The notes under the pieces are model-generated. The model was not told the origin of the DNA. It saw only the letters and a list, made by a program, of their open reading frames with translations, and made no database searches. Shown here in pieces: positions 11,734 to 64,000 of a stretch of 64,000 nt of DNA. Position 1 is the stretch's first letter. Each line of letters starts with the position of its first letter. The stretch is from a virus, in IMG/VR virus record IMGVR_UViG_3300027833_000025, positions 33,819-97,818 of that record; one strand, 5' to 3'. The position numbers and the translations under genes were made by a program.

Positions 11734-12591
11734 ATGGCATATAGAGGTATTCAAGCAACAAACTTAATAAGTGTAGACGCAGCATTTGATGATGCGTTGC
11801 TTATATTAAATAAATCAGGTACAACTCCAGTAGATGTGGGATTCTTAGGAAGAATTGGTCCGTCATCTTACTCTGGTCTTGTTAAAGATTCAGAAACAGA
11901 TTCGTTCATTCTAATTAACTCAATTAATTTAAGTTCACAATCTATTAATGATATCAGTCCATTAGATACAAGTATAGTAAAAGGCAATATTACAGTAGCA
12001 ACGATTACAGCAGATTCATTTGTTGGTAATATTAAAGGTAACATTTTAAATCCAACTACTGGTGCAATGGTAGTAAACGCCTCCGGAGGTATTTACACAT
12101 TAACAGGTAATGTAGCAGGCAACTTATATGGCGATGTACTTTCACCTACCCAAAATACGCCAATTATTACTACTGGTCCAGTAAGAGACACATTAACAAT
12201 CCATGATGCACATATTGAAAAAATAAAAGCACCTGCAAGTAGTGGCGGTGCAACAATACTTAACACTTCTGGAGCAACTACACTATCAGGACATAACGTT
12301 CATCTAACAGGATCACTATATGGTGATATCGGTGATACACTAGCAAATGATCCAGTGCTTACAGTTGGTACTGGCAATAATGATTCGCAAATAGCAGTAA
12401 CAGTAGCATCAATAGATGAATTGCAAGTTAATGACTCGTTTGTGTTACCAAAAGGTACAGCAGCACAGCATCCAGCCAATCCAGTTGAAGGACAGATGTT
12501 TTTCAATACAGAAACGAAACTGTTTGAAGGTTATGACGGAACATCATGGATACAATTCCTACCAACTACATTCTCAATGGCAACTCCTTAA
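11734..12591 (+). CDS. Virion structural protein, probable tail fibre or appendage, 285 aa
   Basis: Low-complexity beta-rich sequence with recurring GN[IL].G(D/N) units (GNIKGNI, GNVAGNLYGDV, GSLYGDIGD). The C-terminal GQMFFNTE...YDGTSWIQF module is typical of phage fibre and appendage proteins. No enzymatic motif. A late promoter box and a strong ribosome-binding site precede it, and it leads a block of structural genes. Confidence 0.75.
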   Translation: MAYRGIQATNLISVDAAFDDALLILNKSGTTPVDVGFLGRIGPSSYSGLVKDSETDSFILINSINLSSQSINDISPLDTSIVKGNITVATITADSFVGNIKGNILNPTTGAMVVNASGGIYTLTGNVAGNLYGDVLSPTQNTPIITTGPVRDTLTIHDAHIEKIKAPASSGGATILNTSGATTLSGHNVHLTGSLYGDIGDTLANDPVLTVGTGNNDSQIAVTVASIDELQVNDSFVLPKGTAAQHPANPVEGQMFFNTETKLFEGYDGTSWIQFLPTTFSMATP

Positions 12592-33645: not shown

Positions 33646-34070
33646 TGCTACGTTTTGTAAAATCCATATATAAAAAATGGGTTGATAAACGATATCTAAA
33701 GAAACATAATTGTGAATCGTGGGAACAATATAATCATATTTACGACCCATATATAGATCATGATGCTAAAAACATTAGAGATTATTTTTTTGGTTATAGT
33801 AGTATTGTTCATGTGAGATGGGCTGTTGTCAGCAATCTTCCATCATGGCATGAATTTCATGCCCAACCACATGAATTGACTAAATGGTGCAAAGAACATT
33901 GTGCAGATGATTTCAGACTTGATCAGATACGTGGTTCATTTATAAATTCTAAATTTGTGTTAGCGTCCGTATCAATACATTCAGATAATATTTTACGAGT
34001 TCCTGTAGAAGTGTTCTTGGCATTCAAGTCAGAAAAAGATGCATTATTATTTAAGTTACATTGGATATGA
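33642..34070 (+). CDS. WC-DA family hypothetical protein, 142 aa
   Basis: The start overlaps the exonuclease stop (ATGA). Basic N-terminus, then KWCKEHC and the terminal SEKDALLFKLHW. Second member of the family in this locus. An upstream in-frame ATG at 33600 is disfavoured by the overlap it would need. Confidence 0.7.
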   Translation: MMLRFVKSIYKKWVDKRYLKKHNCESWEQYNHIYDPYIDHDAKNIRDYFFGYSSIVHVRWAVVSNLPSWHEFHAQPHELTKWCKEHCADDFRLDQIRGSFINSKFVLASVSIHSDNILRVPVEVFLAFKSEKDALLFKLHWI

Positions 34071-46684: not shown

Positions 46685-46704
46685 TATTATAATTGGAGAA
46701 ATAT

Positions 46705-47460
46705 ATGTCAAACACTAAAGAAGTAGATTGGGCAGTAACAGAATTATGTTCACATTTATGTGATAAAGCATATTCTGATAAAGAAGGTATGACTACATAC
46801 TTGAAAGAGAATAATATAAAATATTCTAGTGTAAAATTCTTTACGAATGATAGTGCGCAAGGATATGGTATTGTTATGCCTGATTATGTTGTTATCGCAT
46901 TACGCGGAACAGAACCAACGAAGGTTAAAGATATGTTAGCAGACATTAAAGCATGGCCTTCGGAAAGTGACACTGATGGTAAAGTTCACGCTGGATTTAA
47001 AGCAGAAATTGATAAGTTGTATCCTGCGTTAGTTAAATGGTTGAAGCCTAAAAGTAAGAAAAAACTTATTATAACTGGACATAGTTTAGGTGCAGCAATG
47101 GCAACTATACTTGCAAGTAGACTGAAACCAACTACACCAGATTTAGTGTTGTATACATTTGGCTGTCCTAGAGTAGGTAATAGGGAATGGGGTGTTCAGT
47201 TTGACGATATAGAAGCGTATCGATTCGTGAACACGAATGATATCATACCACAAGTTCCGATGTTAGGATATTATCGTCATGTTGGTCAATTACAATATAT
47301 ATCATATGATTATAGAATCTTAACTGGTCTTAATTGGTGGCATCGGTTTGTTGATAAAGTGAAAGGTAAATTGAAAGCATGGAGTAAGTTTCAATTGTTT
47401 AATGGAATTTATGATCACCTAAGTGTTCATTATATTAAAAAAATTAAATTACGCAAATAA
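46705..47460 (+). CDS. Class 3 lipase-like alpha/beta hydrolase, 251 aa
   Basis: ATG 46705 follows TTGGAGAA. The nucleophile elbow GHSLGAA (about residues 125-131), FGCPRVGN, FVNTNDIIPQVP (Asp) and the C-terminal HLSVHY (His) match the Lipase_3 family catalytic triad and landmarks. No signal peptide, so it would act in the cytoplasm or reach membranes after lysis starts. It could damage membrane lipids. It is the only plus-strand gene in this half, and a late box precedes it. Confidence 0.9.
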   Translation: MSNTKEVDWAVTELCSHLCDKAYSDKEGMTTYLKENNIKYSSVKFFTNDSAQGYGIVMPDYVVIALRGTEPTKVKDMLADIKAWPSESDTDGKVHAGFKAEIDKLYPALVKWLKPKSKKKLIITGHSLGAAMATILASRLKPTTPDLVLYTFGCPRVGNREWGVQFDDIEAYRFVNTNDIIPQVPMLGYYRHVGQLQYISYDYRILTGLNWWHRFVDKVKGKLKAWSKFQLFNGIYDHLSVHYIKKIKLRK

Positions 47461-50374: not shown

Positions 50375-51022
50375 TTAATCACGCCTATAAAATATGTGCG
50401 CACCAATACGACCTACTGAATGCATACCACGATCTGTGCGCCAATTTGGTTTTACATATGTAGCATGATAATGAACTGCGCCGTCAGTAATTCCCCTCAT
50501 GTTAGCATTCACGTAAATATCCCATGCGACTTCTTGTGAGCGTACCCAATTATCACTACCATAAGGTATTGTGTCAGGTTTCCCGTCACAGTACCAAGAA
50601 AATTGGCATTTGTGTAAAATTGGATAGTATATTCTTAATTCATCAGGAAGAGTGGGGTCTTGTTTTGTTTTCCAACTCTCTCTCGTATACCCCTCATAAA
50701 CAACATCACATACTGTATGAGCCCAACGACGATCTGTTACTCTATTTAATGTAACATCGGCTACCGCATACATACCCGCTTTATTATCAATACCTGCTTC
50801 AAAGTATATATTCTTTGCAAGACAGAAGATTTGAGGATGTTTTTCTGGATTAGTCAGAAAGTATTCGCTGTCAGTGCGTTTTTGAATACTAGCCCAAGAT
50901 TCATCATCTGACAAATCAATTTTTGCTGGGACTAATAATGGTGCGTCTGCTGCCAAAATAAACTGACCATAAGCCGCACCACCTAGCATTGTCAACATTG
51001 ACATTACCAATAAAATTTTCAT
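50375..51022 (-). CDS. SleB-type cell-wall hydrolase, 215 aa
   Basis: Start 51022 follows AAGGAA and gives a signal peptide (residues 1-19, ending AYG). The catalytic region IYFEAGIDNKAGMYAVADVT, CQFSWYCDG and a late YHATYVKPNW...GAHIFYR are typical of the Hydrolase_2/SleB lytic-transglycosylase family, with Glu as the likely catalytic acid. An exported peptidoglycan hydrolase for lysis, or for entry if virion-associated. Confidence 0.9.
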   Translation of the reverse strand: MKILLVMSMLTMLGGAAYGQFILAADAPLLVPAKIDLSDDESWASIQKRTDSEYFLTNPEKHPQIFCLAKNIYFEAGIDNKAGMYAVADVTLNRVTDRRWAHTVCDVVYEGYTRESWKTKQDPTLPDELRIYYPILHKCQFSWYCDGKPDTIPYGSDNWVRSQEVAWDIYVNANMRGITDGAVHYHATYVKPNWRTDRGMHSVGRIGAHIFYRRD

Positions 51023-51035
51023 ACTGTATAATTCC

Positions 51036-51137
51036 TTATTTAGAGTCGATGCTATTTGCAATCAAGTGAAGGGGGACAGTCACAAACAATGCGGCTGGTA
51101 GGGACAATAATGCTATTGCGTGTAATAACCAAAACAT
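51036..51137 (-). CDS. Small membrane protein, 33 aa
   Basis: A GGAAG site 6 bp before the ATG. A single hydrophobic segment covers most of the peptide (MFWLLHAIALLSLPAALF). Located beside the cell-wall hydrolase, so a lysis accessory or pinholin-like role can be imagined but is not shown. Confidence 0.5.
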   Translation of the reverse strand: MFWLLHAIALLSLPAALFVTVPLHLIANSIDSK

Positions 51138-51761: not shown

Positions 51762-52226
51762 TTATACTACAATTCCATTTAGATAAACTGTTTTACCATC
51801 TTCCTTGACTGCTGTTAAGATTTGGTTTCTATTTTCTGACTGTGATTTATAACTACAATGAGTCCAACCTGAGTTAGGATCTCCTGGGATATAAAATTCC
51901 AATATTAGTTGATCAAAGTCTAAGTTGTCTGCAATCCATTGTGATACTTGTACCGTTGAAGCAAAGTTTGTTTCCATATCTGCTGCTTCAGCCTTTGAAT
52001 GCTGTGAACCACGCGCACCACCAATTGCATCATTTAATGCTTCTGATCTATAGCCAGATGTAATTACTGTAGGACCAAAGTGATCTCTTACTGGTTGAAC
52101 TATATTTTCAAATAATGCTTTAGCACTTTCTAAGTGTGCATCCGTCATTGAGTTATCAATGCATCTACGAGTTGCCGTTGATGATTTCGTGTATTCGCTT
52201 ACTGTAAAATTTTTACTTAATTTCAT
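51762..52226 (-). CDS. Peptidase M15-type endolysin, 154 aa
   Basis: SQHSKAEAADME provides the His and Asp zinc ligands and WTHCSY the second His of M15A D-Ala-D-Ala peptidases. FTVSEYTKSSTA and TSGYRS are also family landmarks. No signal peptide, so export would need a holin, as for T4-type endolysins. A late box and GAGGTAT site precede it. Confidence 0.9.
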   Translation of the reverse strand: MKLSKNFTVSEYTKSSTATRRCIDNSMTDAHLESAKALFENIVQPVRDHFGPTVITSGYRSEALNDAIGGARGSQHSKAEAADMETNFASTVQVSQWIADNLDFDQLILEFYIPGDPNSGWTHCSYKSQSENRNQILTAVKEDGKTVYLNGIVV

Positions 52227-52246
52227 AATTATATACCTCTATAACT

Positions 52247-52254
52247 ATTTATAC
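52247..52254 (-). promoter_or_regulatory. T4-type late promoter (minus)
   Basis: Minus strand reads TATAAATA, an exact T4 late box, 21 bp upstream of the endolysin start. Confidence 0.68.
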
Positions 52255-57824: not shown

Positions 57825-57852
57825 AAAAAAGACGCATTTAGCGTCTTTTTTT
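57825..57852 (-). terminator. Rho-independent terminator
   Basis: AAAAAAGACGC, loop ATTTA, GCGTCTTTTTT. Works in both directions, but is placed just after the last gene of the membrane operon. Confidence 0.88.
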
Positions 57853-57864
57853 ACATAAGTTGTA

Positions 57865-58932
57865 TTATGTCTTCTTGCGATATACTCTCTTTTTCTTTGC
57901 TGGTGCTGCTGCTTCAATTAGTTCTGCTTCATCTAACACCTTATTGAATTCACGTAGACGCTTAATCACTGATTGAAAGTCAACAATCGTTGTCCATCTA
58001 TCAATGAAGAATGTCATTGAACCCTCTACTCTACTAAATGCGTTAAGTACTTGGAATAGAACACCTAATGTTATTAACTGTTCAAAGTAACTTGGTGCTA
58101 ATACAATGATTGCTATGTTTCCTGCTGCTAATCCGAATGCAGTTGACCATACACCAAACCCCATATACCAGTTGAACAAACGATAATAGTTTTTCTTTAC
58201 TGCTGCAAACATTGGAAATAAATCATCAGTTACACGTTGAGTCAAATCATCTTCTGAATGAACTAATTTCTTTCTGAATTTTGCTTCTACCACTTGGTTA
58301 TTGTATTCTAGTCCAGGCAATTTCATACCTAGTATGAATGAGATCAATGTACCACCGATAGATACGCCTAGTGCTACCCATACTAAGAATCCAGGGATGA
58401 TATGACCATTCCAAACTGGTAGTCCTTCTGAAAGTTCCCATAAGATCGGCAAGAATGCAAATAATACAAGTATTGCACTAAAGAAGCCAGTGAATAGACT
58501 TTGTAATGTTTTACCGAATACCATTAAATCTTCTTGAATACGCTGTGACCCACCTTCTATTTTAGCAGTGGATTTCTCCCATCGTTTAAGATAGTGATGT
58601 GTATTCGCTTCGCGCCAACGGAATGTATACCTCTGTGTCTGCCATATAACGTATGTTGCCATTGGTGTATATAGGATTATAATTTCCAAGAATGATGGTA
58701 CAGTATCTTCTTTTATTGTTAACAACTCGGTAAATCTGATCACATCAAATCCCCATAATAAGTCCCAAAATCTTTCTTCTTGTAGTGTTTGAATTGCGTC
58801 ATAGAACTCTTTATTCCATAAGTTGTATGCTACTAATATTTGTACATTGTACCAAGTAATAACTAACAAGAATGCAAGCATTACCCATGCATATACGGCA
58901 CTTTCTTTCGTTCCAAAGAAACTTTTTAACAT
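57865..58932 (-). CDS. SbmA/BacA-like peptide transporter, 355 aa
   Basis: Clear SbmA/BacA family: NAWYAPFYD-like NLWNKEFYDAIQT, YTFRWREANTHHY, IEGGSQRIQED, KLPGLEYNNQVVEA, GEDD-like SEDD, KKNYYRLF and SWTTxxE-like DRWTTIVDF. About six membrane helices. It lacks the first ~80 residues of E. coli SbmA (406 aa) and has a basic KKKRVYRKK tail. SbmA imports peptides and some antibiotics using the proton gradient. A phage copy is striking. Confidence 0.93.
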   Translation of the reverse strand: MLKSFFGTKESAVYAWVMLAFLLVITWYNVQILVAYNLWNKEFYDAIQTLQEERFWDLLWGFDVIRFTELLTIKEDTVPSFLEIIILYTPMATYVIWQTQRYTFRWREANTHHYLKRWEKSTAKIEGGSQRIQEDLMVFGKTLQSLFTGFFSAILVLFAFLPILWELSEGLPVWNGHIIPGFLVWVALGVSIGGTLISFILGMKLPGLEYNNQVVEAKFRKKLVHSEDDLTQRVTDDLFPMFAAVKKNYYRLFNWYMGFGVWSTAFGLAAGNIAIIVLAPSYFEQLITLGVLFQVLNAFSRVEGSMTFFIDRWTTIVDFQSVIKRLREFNKVLDEAELIEAAAPAKKKRVYRKKT

Positions 58933-58943
58933 TTAATATTCTC

Positions 58944-59831
58944 CTATTTTAACGCTGCTTCTGCATTCGATGCTGAATAACTCCAAAAGTCTTTGTAATT
59001 AGTTGCAATTGTAACTAATGCTGGTTTTGCAGCAAAATCCCTTGGATGTAACCAATACATTGATGCAGATGGAATTTGTATGAATAATAATCTTAATGAC
59101 TCATTAACTCCTAGTCTGTCTAACAATTTTAATAATGCTGCCGCAGTACGATATGCAGATGCTTCTAGTGCTGTTGGATTCATTTTACCAATCGATTCTA
59201 ATGGTGTGCGTGGACCATGTATGCCAAAATACACATCACCTATTAAGTATCGTTTATCACCTGCTAGAAATAAAAGACCGCATGCAGATGCACACATTGA
59301 CTTGTCTTTCATACTATCTTTTGTATTTTCACTATTTAAGTTCACAGTACCAGGCGTGTATATTACTTTGCCATTTTCATTAAATACTTCTGTTGCACGC
59401 ACTACCGTAATCACATCACGCAATTTAAAATGCGCTGCAAGGCATGAACCTTCTGATAGACTGCCACCTGGACTTTCTAAAATAACAGTAAATGATGATG
59501 GTAAGTCTGGAACAATACGTTCACAATCTCCTTCTAGCACAGATCCTACCAAAGTATATAAGTTCTGATCTATTTTAGTAAAAACAAGTCCAGTTTCTTT
59601 ATTGGCTTCTTCTTCTTCTGTTTTATCTTTATTTGCTTCGATATAAAGTATCATGTAATCATTATACCAAGTATGTATTTGGTTAGCAGAGAATAATAAT
59701 ATGATTATCGTCATGATTACCAATGGCGCACTGTGTGATATTTTATTGTATAATCTAATTATTAATTTAATCAATGACCAACTGATAATATACTGTTTAA
59801 TATATTCATAAACATTTTTAATTTTATTCAT
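58944..59831 (-). CDS. Membrane-anchored ClpP/SppA-fold protease-like protein, 295 aa
   Basis: One N-terminal transmembrane helix (about 35-49), then a ClpP/crotonase-type domain: ESPGGS (119-124), MCASACGLLFLAG with Ser182 as likely nucleophile, and GIHGP with His205 as possible base. Fits the periplasmic SppA/COG3904-like proteases. A cytoplasmic ClpP is separately encoded at 63.6 kb. In the operon between an 83-aa gene and the SbmA-like transporter. Confidence 0.77.
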   Translation of the reverse strand: MNKIKNVYEYIKQYIISWSLIKLIIRLYNKISHSAPLVIMTIIILLFSANQIHTWYNDYMILYIEANKDKTEEEEANKETGLVFTKIDQNLYTLVGSVLEGDCERIVPDLPSSFTVILESPGGSLSEGSCLAAHFKLRDVITVVRATEVFNENGKVIYTPGTVNLNSENTKDSMKDKSMCASACGLLFLAGDKRYLIGDVYFGIHGPRTPLESIGKMNPTALEASAYRTAAALLKLLDRLGVNESLRLLFIQIPSASMYWLHPRDFAAKPALVTIATNYKDFWSYSASNAEAALK

Positions 59832-60075
59832 CGTTTTTCTTCTCTAGATTTTTTTCTGTGATCTCAATATATTTTTTCATAGTCACACAATCTGTACGTG
59901 TGATTAACCTATATTCCATATCAAGCGTAGACTCGCTATTCATTCTACCTTTATACACTTCACAAATTTCCATTGTTGGAAATGGATATGATTTCATTAC
60001 TCCATTACCCAATTGTATTCCAAATAATGATACTACATAATGTGCTACTAATAATACTGCCTGTGGTGCATCCAT
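59824..60075 (-). CDS. Small operon protein, possibly exported, 83 aa
   Basis: Mildly hydrophobic N-terminus (AVLLVAHYVVSLFG) that may anchor it in the membrane, followed by a charged part with two Cys. Overlaps the protease gene by 8 bp. Function unknown. Confidence 0.66.
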   Translation of the reverse strand: MDAPQAVLLVAHYVVSLFGIQLGNGVMKSYPFPTMEICEVYKGRMNSESTLDMEYRLITRTDCVTMKKYIEITEKNLEKKNDE

Positions 60076-60092
60076 TATAGACTTACTCCTTG

Positions 60093-60602
60093 TTAATTTA
60101 TTACTATATTACGCGGTTTTGGTACTTCTTTCAGTATGCTTTGTCCATTATCATCTATATTAGACATTATGAATGACATTGCTTCACCGTTTAATCCTTT
60201 CTTGAACTTTCCTTGTGGTTGAGATTTACCATCAGCACCAGTTAATTCTTTTACCTTCTGTAAATTTTCTTTACTCCAATCTATTTTATATAATTTGGGA
60301 CCAACGTACTTAGTTGGTTCTGACAATAGTAAGTATATCCAAGGTTTTTCATCGTATGCATATAATAATTGTACCTCTTTATTATATGGTAAACCATATA
60401 TTGGCATTCCTTGCAATGCAGTTATCGCTTGCCAACTATAGAGTGACATTAGTAACGCTGTTGGAATAATAATAAATGTGTATAACCTATTTGCTTTGCT
60501 CTGTATTAGTGCATACACGCATACTACTACTAGTAAAAACAAACCAATAACATACAACACGATCATGATATCTACATTCATTACATTTAATACACTATAC
60601 AT
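60093..60602 (-). CDS. Membrane protein of late operon, 169 aa
   Basis: Two N-terminal membrane helices (about residues 11-31 and 41-58), then a soluble domain with WIYLLLSEPTKYVGPKLYKI and a terminal PKPRNIVIN. No family recognised. Between the TolR-like gene and the 83-aa gene. Confidence 0.72.
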   Translation of the reverse strand: MYSVLNVMNVDIMIVLYVIGLFLLVVVCVYALIQSKANRLYTFIIIPTALLMSLYSWQAITALQGMPIYGLPYNKEVQLLYAYDEKPWIYLLLSEPTKYVGPKLYKIDWSKENLQKVKELTGADGKSQPQGKFKKGLNGEAMSFIMSNIDDNGQSILKEVPKPRNIVIN

Positions 60603-60616
60603 AATACTTATCCTCT

Positions 60617-61273
60617 TTATCTTGCCCCGCCAGGCGAAGGTCTTGTCTCTCTAGGTGAAGGTATTGTAACAGAAGATCCAGAATTAACACGTGGTATTAC
60701 CATATCACTGATAAAAATATCTGATATATTACCTTCATTATCCACTGTAAACGCTGGCATTTTGAATATCTCACCTTTCTTGGTTGCATACTCTTGTATG
60801 TGAATTACTTCTTTATATGGATTAATGTCCACTAATGAAACTGTGAACAATGTTGGTTTGTCTGTGGGATACTTTCCGTATATATGTACATTAATAAAAT
60901 AGTCACCGGGCATTATACCACGCATATTAACTACTTCTCTATTAATTCTTATTATTTTTGGTACACCAGCAACCATGATTGTATCAGATGTGGATCCTAA
61001 ATCATCTCTATCAAGATGCATGAATCCGCTAGTTTTATTTTGAAAACTCAATGGAAATTCCATACCTGGACCCATCACCCATATATCAATATCATCAGAA
61101 ACCTGACCATCCCATTCAAGGATTATCATTATTTCTGCATACGCAGGTATATCTCCCTGTTTTGTAATAGGATTTATTAGTACTAGCACTAGAATGAATA
61201 ACGTTACAAAGCCTAATAAGGCGTTAAATAATATGTCATTAAATGCGAGATTAGAACTATATCTCTCTTTCAT
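60617..61273 (-). CDS. TolR/ExbD-like membrane protein with DUF2135-like domain, 218 aa
   Basis: A single N-terminal helix (about 16-34) with Asp13 just before it, as in MotB/TolR/ExbD proton-channel partners. The periplasmic part has DIDIWVMGPG (61-70), resembling the DUF2135/YfaP pattern, and a Pro-rich tail. The start overlaps the TolQ-like gene by 4 bp, which strengthens the pairing. The TolR peptidoglycan-binding region is not evident. Confidence 0.7.
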   Translation of the reverse strand: MKERYSSNLAFNDILFNALLGFVTLFILVLVLINPITKQGDIPAYAEIMIILEWDGQVSDDIDIWVMGPGMEFPLSFQNKTSGFMHLDRDDLGSTSDTIMVAGVPKIIRINREVVNMRGIMPGDYFINVHIYGKYPTDKPTLFTVSLVDINPYKEVIHIQEYATKKGEIFKMPAFTVDNEGNISDIFISDMVIPRVNSGSSVTIPSPRETRPSPGGAR

Positions 61274-61716
61274 TTATTATTATTATCCTGTAATATAAGT
61301 TGAGATCGTAATGAGACAGACGCTATCAGACCAACTAATGTAGTCAACAATGCTGTTGCCATACCATTCGCTAATTGTCCGATTACATCTTTCATTGATT
61401 GAATATTAGATGGGTCTAATGAACCTAAGTCACTACCATCTAACATAAGAATAAATCCAAGAACTGTACCCATCATACCAATAGACATACAGGTTTCTGC
61501 TATGAACCAATATTTTTCATCAGATGTGGTAGAACGGGTATAAGACCTATGCCCAATTTTAACACTTGTTAAAAACCATAGTCCTAACAATGCAAACGAA
61601 ATATATGTTTGATCATTTTGAAATACATATATATGTAAATCATAATAGTATGCTGTCCCAAGTGCAAGCAGTTGAATTACGAAAATTAACCACCAAAATA
61701 AAAAATCCTTTGTCAC
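61270..61716 (-). CDS. MotA/TolQ/ExbB-like proton channel subunit, 148 aa
   Basis: GTG start behind AGGGAG. About four helices. SIGMMGTVLGFIL (79-90) and GQLANGMATALLTTLVGL (113-130) match the conserved TM pair of MotA/TolQ/ExbB channels, including the small-residue and Thr positions lining the proton path. It is shorter than TolQ (about 230 aa), with a reduced cytoplasmic loop. With the TolR-like protein it probably forms a proton-driven complex. Confidence 0.85.
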   Translation of the reverse strand: MTKDFLFWWLIFVIQLLALGTAYYYDLHIYVFQNDQTYISFALLGLWFLTSVKIGHRSYTRSTTSDEKYWFIAETCMSIGMMGTVLGFILMLDGSDLGSLDPSNIQSMKDVIGQLANGMATALLTTLVGLIASVSLRSQLILQDNNNK

Positions 61717-61739
61717 TATAATATTCTCCCTGTTAATAC

Positions 61740-61747
61740 TATTTATG
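61740..61747 (-). promoter_or_regulatory. T4-type late promoter (minus)
   Basis: Minus strand reads CATAAATA, 23 bp upstream of the TolQ-like start. It suggests that the whole membrane operon is expressed late. Confidence 0.6.
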
Positions 61748-61753
61748 TCAAAA

Positions 61754-61779
61754 CAAAAAAAGACTCCTCAGGAGTCTCA
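61754..61779 (-). terminator. Rho-independent terminator (minus)
   Basis: GAGACTCCTGAGGAGTCT followed by a T run on the minus strand, directly after the WC-DA gene, separating the clamp-loader unit from the membrane operon. Confidence 0.85.
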
Positions 61780-63599: not shown

Positions 63600-64000
63600 T
63601 TAATATGTTTTGATCACTTTATCGGCAATACCATGCTTTACTGCTTGATCTGGTGTTAACCAATGATCTGTCTTAGGTGCTAATGTAAACTCACGGATAT
63701 ATTTTTCAGACTTACCAGTGCATTTCTTGTAATGCTCTAGCAGTTTTTTATTTGTCCAATTCATGTGCTTGTGACTGTCTATCATGTCGTGATACTGACC
63801 TTGTGTACCACCACTGAATTCGTGTGACATCACTGCGGTATTATGTGTTAGATAACGATGTCCTTTAACACCAGACATCATCAGCATTACACCACAACTT
63901 GCGATAGATCCCATGCCGTATGTATACACTGGAATACGTGATTGCTTCACAACATCAATTAGATGCATACAAGAATCCACATAACCGCCAGGCGAATTAA
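63600..64000 (-). CDS. clpP: ClpP protease, 5' end beyond the window
   Basis: The reading frame continues upstream past 64000 (NSPGGYVDS is encoded before the first ATG at 63980), so the true start is outside. The catalytic triad is visible: Ser in SIASCG, His in VMSHEFSGG, Asp in KTDHWLTPDQA. It forms the proteolytic chamber for ClpA or host ClpX. With clpA at 8.0 kb it gives a phage-encoded Clp protease. Confidence 0.93.
   Translation of the reverse strand, partial: NSPGGYVDSCMHLIDVVKQSRIPVYTYGMGSIASCGVMLMMSGVKGHRYLTHNTAVMSHEFSGGTQGQYHDMIDSHKHMNWTNKKLLEHYKKCTGKSEKYIREFTLAPKTDHWLTPDQAVKHGIADKVIKTY

Follow-up and report, generated by a model that had tools for sequence, protein, structure and literature searches.

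Gene organization of the operon

We have analyzed a stretch of 64,000 nucleotides of DNA from a marine phage (the window hereafter), covering positions 33,819 to 97,818 of the 97.8 kb IMG/VR viral record IMGVR_UViG_3300027833_000025. Within the window six open reading frames lie on the minus strand and run in one direction from 61716 down to 57865, forming a tight operon that we call Q, R, T3, T4, S and B. The overlaps are 4 bp for Q/R and 8 bp for T4/S, with gaps of 11-17 bp between the other neighbors. The features of the locus are as follows.

61760-61778, minus strand: terminator-like hairpin just 5' of Q, setting the operon apart from the upstream gene
61740-61746, minus strand: ATAAATA promoter-like box about 30 bp 5' of Q, from motif enrichment
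61270-61716, minus strand: Q, a channel subunit of MotA/TolQ/ExbB type, 148 aa, from Pfam MotA_ExbB
60617-61273, minus strand: R, a TolR/ExbD-like single-helix partner with a beta-sandwich, from alignment and an AlphaFold2 model
60093-60602, minus strand: T3, a two-helix protein with a predicted periplasmic C-terminal domain, from the pattern of helices and charges in homologues
59824-60075, minus strand: T4, a small protein, hydrophobic at its N-terminus, in which two Cys residues are invariant, from alignment
58944-59831, minus strand: S, a predicted periplasmic, membrane-anchored serine protease with a ClpP-like layout, from a 24-sequence alignment
57865-58932, minus strand: B, an inner-membrane peptide transporter of SbmA/BacA type, from Pfam SbmA_BacA
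57825-57851, minus strand: hairpin with a T-run resembling an intrinsic terminator, 3' of B, closing the operon

A preliminary description of this DNA had proposed six co-oriented genes ending at a terminator. All of the reading frames lie where it had placed them, and the closing hairpin reads from 57851 to 57825.

A conserved triad of genes

By profile search, R is encoded in at least 375 IMG/VR stretches, the best 80 of which were fetched. Our set comprises 92 non-redundant loci, one being the copy in the window. Q lies directly 5' of R in 89 of these and T3 directly 3' of R in 86. At 82 of the 83 testable loci, those with at least two genes on either side of R, both Q and T3 are close to R and the order is kept. 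The recurrence of the gene set is far beyond chance, and the triad proves to be linked, not scattered, in phage genomes where the same gene order was sought.

The operon thus consists of two modules, the triad Q-R-T3 and the pair S and B, since most triads have neither S nor B. The preliminary description took the six genes as one set; their linkage stands, and the notion of a single unit does not.

Several other genes lie close to the triad. At locus L014 (3951-4778) and six further loci a protein of 275-285 aa with a signal peptide, rich in beta structure and ending in Phe, is encoded directly 5' of Q; in these nearest relatives it is probably an outer-membrane protein. A gene for a ClpP-type protease, probably cytoplasmic, lies a few genes from the triad in the window (63600-63998) and at 29 loci. 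In L087 (7626-8888) and L084 a gene with a weak match to 2OG-Fe(II) oxygenases stands between R and T3.

The proteins of the triad

Q matches Pfam MotA_ExbB (PF01618) at 8e-7, above the cut-off, and its earlier assignment as a MotA/TolQ/ExbB-like channel is thereby upheld; bacterial Q proteins likewise carry the domain. G80, G83 and G129 are invariant and T84, T125 and T126 nearly so; the GxxGT and TT motifs, which surround the proton path, are conserved. Four helices are predicted in 84 of 90 homologues, with a short loop between helices 2 and 3, and the phage proteins are 137-178 aa long. In a profile search of the PDB the part of Q containing the motifs aligns to MotA, TolQ, ExbB and ZorA, with E values only at or above 0.015. 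The best matches in PADLOC are ZorA models, at 2e-8.

R has one helix, in which Asp13 is invariant in 83 phage sequences, and behind it a further set of invariant Asp residues marks an Asp-rich periplasmic beta-sandwich. The AlphaFold2 model (mean pLDDT 86.6) shows a helix at residues 8-33 followed by the sandwich. Foldseek returned only weak matches, the best being 2qng at E 2e-3, followed by sandwiches that include a calcium-bound one; a comparison with viral structure models gave nothing informative. The helix and its Asp agree with the earlier view of R as a TolR-like partner. The DUF2135 identity proposed for its domain was rejected, the match being weak (E = 0.024) and confined to one of 32 members.

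T3 has two helices joined by a loop that is positively charged in 84 of 90 homologues. By the positive-inside rule this places the C-terminal domain in the periplasm. That domain is modeled as a small beta domain, for which neither sequence search nor structure search found a match. There is no significant Pfam match for R, T3, T4 or S.

TolQ-TolR, ExbB-ExbD and MotA-MotB are proton motors with 5:2 stoichiometry. Q and R resemble them in the family domain and in the Thr and Gly motifs of Q, in a partner that has an invariant Asp at the beginning of its only helix, and in forming an adjacent pair in the same order. They differ from them in that phage Q has nearly no cytoplasmic domain and that the Asp-rich beta-sandwich of R replaces the TolR, ExbD or OmpA-like domain. 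T3 matches neither TolA nor TonB. The proposal of a proton-driven envelope machine is thus well supported by the features of Q and R; assembly of five Q and two R subunits, and rotation, would follow from those of the family.

Fusion of T3 to a lysozyme domain

In one group of relatives T3 runs into a Phage_lysozyme (GH24) domain, matched with E values of about 1e-47 to 3e-49. These are loci L048, L049/L133, L050, L051, L055, L056 and L134, and L149 as judged by the length of the match. The catalytic E-8-D-5-T spacing is intact in all eight fused sequences checked. The fusion corresponds to one change on the R tree, in a single clade, and is not present in the window.

In close relatives without the fusion a wall hydrolase is encoded at one fixed place, between a gene with the motif GxWxDWQV and the short gene preceding PhoH. 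The place is occupied by Hydrolase_2 in L046, L053, L099/L109 and L103, and by a SAR-type GH24 enzyme in L059. No recognized hydrolase stands at that place in the fused L049/L133 and L050/L051, and in L050/L051 it holds two reading frames of no assigned function. A glycine-zipper lipoprotein resembling the 17 kDa surface antigen adjoins the wall hydrolase in L046 (9082-9552) and relatives; it is absent together with the hydrolase in L049, a phage with the T3-lysozyme fusion.

The protease and the transporter

In an alignment of 24 sequences of S, Ser182 (within CASAC), His205 (within GIH) and four Cys residues are invariant in a ClpP layout; the domain that bears them follows a single helix and is predicted to be periplasmic. 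No match was found in Pfam, nor any sequence match in the PDB. Of the earlier assignment as a membrane-anchored protease of ClpP/SppA fold, the spacing of the putative catalytic Ser and His is consistent with it, while no profile match places S in such a family. The identification of B as a homologue of SbmA/BacA is confirmed by a match to PF05992 (SbmA_BacA) over residues 12-333 at 5e-80; NCBIfam NF009036 matches at 7e-91, below the cut-off of that model. B thus resembles SbmA/BacA over the full-length profile, and differs in being phage-encoded and in its association with a protease and a motor. SbmA matches in Acinetobacter records labeled as phage were set aside, as they look bacterial, with neighbors encoding threonine dehydratase and YaaJ.

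S and B are adjacent, and are placed either 3' of the triad (Q-R-T3-T4-S-B) or 5' of it (S-B-Q-R-T3); T4 occurs only upstream of S-B. In a further group B stands alone 3' of T3, without S, and this B matches SbmA_BacA at 9.5e-138. The minimum number of changes on the R tree is two for S-B upstream, three for S-B downstream and three for B alone. The neighborhood of S-B and the triad has therefore been made or lost repeatedly.

The triad in phages of Rhizobium

R is found in 27 GenBank phage records, all from phages of Rhizobium or Sinorhizobium. In the temperate Rhizobium phage 16-3, p038 is Q, p040 is R and p042 is T3, and the triad is placed between the tail-fiber and immX genes and attP. 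The region p036-p042 (L145, 6244-9132), annotated as a protease and unknowns, consists of a trypsin-like protease and the triad. A secreted trypsin-like protease is encoded upstream of Q, mostly directly, in all ten phages and prophages of the 16-3 type that were examined, and p036 matches Pfam Trypsin_2. The triad is thus linked to periplasmic serine proteases of two unrelated families, the ClpP-like S and this trypsin-like enzyme. In complete Rhizobium phages the triad stands without S, and the search gave no match to B.

The triad on bacterial chromosomes

Whole genomes were sampled around a Mesorhizobium centre and searched with the R profile. Of 385 genomes from its class (Alphaproteobacteria) 57 gave matches, as did 18 of 399 from its phylum. 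Nearly all of the chromosomal loci read have the order Q-R-T3. In three small genomes of 27% GC the triad occupies a common place beside iron-sulfur genes of the Suf type, and in two genomes of 65% GC it lies at another common chromosomal place. By size and GC content the former would be SAR11-like and the latter Bradyrhizobium-like. A lipoprotein-like gene follows T3 in 6 of 20 bacterial loci (the bacterial set includes L287-L303). Bacterial Q is longer, at 173-326 aa, and in one lineage of 65% GC the chromosomal R has not kept an Asp at the position aligned to Asp13. The Azospirillum megaplasmids L307 and L308 each carry R homologues twice per record. Part of the bacterial matches may be prophages, such as L305 with its portal-like genes.

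The triad is not a phage invention; it is also a chromosomal bacterial system, an uncharacterized three-gene motor locus that lies partly at conserved places. R proteins of the marine phages fall into deep clades of their own, distinct from the chromosomal ones, and so are not the product of recent capture of a host gene.

A promoter-like box upstream of the operon

The preliminary description placed a late box before the operon. Exact copies of the T4 late box TATAAATA number 7 in the window against 11.8 expected; this sequence is thus not enriched and was rejected as the late box, whereas its core ATAAATA is enriched. There are 24 copies of the core on the two strands. For 40 gene starts, the 60 bp upstream contain 11 of these, where 0.45 would be expected. 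The copy 5' of Q reads GACATAAATAGTATT, at 61746, and others precede a virion-like gene at 11734 and an M15 endolysin at 52252. The endolysin (51762-52226) belongs to PHROG 894 (endolysin) and lies about 6 kb from the end of the operon. Enrichment of the core at gene starts makes a late-type box plausible. Judged from this shared promoter-like box, the operon is probably expressed late, from a box of the kind that also precedes the endolysin gene.

A gene for a class 3 lipase (46693-47460) also stands behind an ATAAATA box, and the window encodes a SleB-type cell wall hydrolase at 50375-51061. A second class of promoter, near-perfect for sigma-70 with full hexamers and a leader like TAAGTTAATTAA, occurs at several starts between 1816 and 57800 of the window. 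It is apparently separate from the ATAAATA class, and its sequence is perhaps that of an early promoter.

Function of the triad

The existence of the gene family is firm, and its function we infer. We tentatively favor, at somewhat less than an even chance, a reading in which Q-R-T3 is the phage branch of an undescribed proteobacterial family of 5:2-type motors, made late and directed at the cell wall, probably in lysis. The rotary unit, driven by protons like those of TolQR, ExbBD and MotAB, would consist of five Q and two R subunits. Since phage Q has nearly no cytoplasmic part, the work would be done in the periplasm, through the beta-sandwich of R and the domain of T3. The phages would add envelope enzymes to the motor: a lysozyme joined to T3, a serine protease in the periplasm and, often, a transporter of SbmA type. 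The proton gradient would then be used to position or pull components of the wall and outer membrane; S would cut proteins that hold the envelope layers to one another, so the opening of the wall would be correctly timed, and B may clear or import the released peptides. The envelope is the target of the attached enzymes, which are a lysozyme and serine proteases of two kinds, and this makes a late, wall-directed role the most likely. Among the roles suggested in the preliminary description, lysis or wall remodeling has the best evidence, in the T3-lysozyme fusion; blocking of superinfection and uptake of peptides become rivals to it.

A more specific form of this reading is possible but doubtful. 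Here a proton-driven rotary unit of MotA/TolQ type would drive or gate a periplasmic arm formed by T3, to which the endolysin is attached or recruited; a dedicated periplasmic protease would assist, the whole being derived from or held in common with the uncharacterized bacterial envelope motor. Such a device would resemble SAR and holin-endolysin-spanin cassettes in holding a GH24 enzyme in the inner membrane, through T3 in the relatives, and in sharing a promoter box with an endolysin. It would differ in that the tether is a two-helix protein linked to a motor. No holin or spanin was recognized in the gene block, and no search was aimed at these in the window.

A number of observations weigh against a role in lysis, or against the motor assignment itself. 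The strongest is the chromosomal occurrence. The triad is present on chromosomes without lytic genes nearby, so that its basic job is not lysis, and phages would at most have put a more general envelope motor to use in lysis. Phages of the 16-3 type encode a separate GH24 lysozyme elsewhere, with an Rz-like gene in some, and the triad therefore does not replace the endolysin there. For loss of the separate hydrolase, five unfused lineages can be compared with two fused ones, all distinct (Fisher p about 0.05); with so few lineages and with short fused contigs this absence is suggestive and not proof, and larger contigs with the fusion were sought and none found. Unfused triads are not clearly nearer to hydrolases than chance. 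Closeness to a hydrolase was dropped as general evidence for lysis, as about a dozen unfused loci have one in the fetched flanks, by estimate about what chance would give. SbmA has no evident role in lysis. Finally, none of 32 R proteins has a Pfam match to ExbD/TolR or OmpA.

The same chromosomal loci fit a role in maintenance of the envelope, which we consider rather unlikely for the phage triad. The phage would carry its own Tol-Pal-like system to keep the outer membrane and the proton gradient sound through a long infection, S degrading and B importing stray periplasmic peptides. The presence of the triad at conserved places on chromosomes, its lipoprotein-like neighbor in several bacteria, and its position near replication and metabolism genes in many phages would all be expected of such a system. 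It shares with Tol-Pal a motor pair and a third membrane protein, and differs from it in that none of the operon proteins has a Pfam match to TolA, TolB or Pal. Maintenance leaves unexplained both the intact endolysin-type domain on T3 and the missing separate hydrolase, and the marine phage forms, being deep clades of their own, are not recent host copies.

It is improbable that the triad serves in superinfection exclusion or defense between phages. In that role it would form an inner-membrane motor and sensor of Zorya type, detecting or blocking a second phage, and the protease and lysozyme would be its periplasmic effectors. Zorya likewise has a MotA-like protein with a helix-Asp partner, consistent with the PADLOC matches of Q to ZorA, and the position of the triad beside immX in the temperate phage 16-3 would suit an immunity function. 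Q has only 148 aa, however, whereas ZorA models have about 400-700 aa with a long cytoplasmic tail, and R lacks the OmpA-like domain of ZorB. With nearly no cytoplasmic part, Q could hardly signal inward as ZorA does, and the effectors appear to be periplasmic. PADLOC gave no match at all for the other five operon proteins, and no ZorC, ZorD or ZorE effector lies in the conserved block, in keeping with the earlier remark that the Zorya helicase and nuclease genes are missing. Membership of Zorya was thus rejected on size, domain and partners, and the ATAAATA box points to expression that is putatively late.

Scavenging of peptides is about as improbable. Under this proposal uptake across the outer membrane would be energized by the motor, S would cut periplasmic peptides and B would import them, feeding virus production. 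B is a clear SbmA/BacA transporter joined to the triad in at least three arrangements, and in the seven near relatives with the Phe-ending, beta-rich protein directly 5' of Q a partner in the outer membrane might be at hand. Most triads manage without S and B, however, and the T3-lysozyme fusion fits uptake poorly. That the operon is a cassette of unrelated membrane genes under a common promoter is very improbable: in G007, a contig of 342 kb, some 30 kb separate the triad from S-B, but elsewhere the two have become neighbors repeatedly, on either side and in distinct R clades.

A search of the open-access literature found neither a phage-encoded TolQR-like motor nor a phage SbmA, in agreement with the earlier statement that no phage system with such a gene set had been described. 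The superfamily of Q is already known; as far as we found, there is no earlier description of the R domain, of T3, of the fusion to lysozyme or of the association with proteases and SbmA.

The rotary proton motors of the Mot, Tol and Ton systems are known as bacterial machines and, in defense, from Zorya. If our favored reading of Q-R-T3 as a late, wall-acting phage motor is true, a widespread phage branch with its own partner domain and a lysozyme-fused subunit would add the generation of force to the means by which phages take over or lyse the cell. It would also draw attention to an uncharacterized three-gene locus present in about one in seven of the sampled alphaproteobacterial genomes. 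Since phage 16-3 has the triad and a host that can be cultivated, the question is directly testable.

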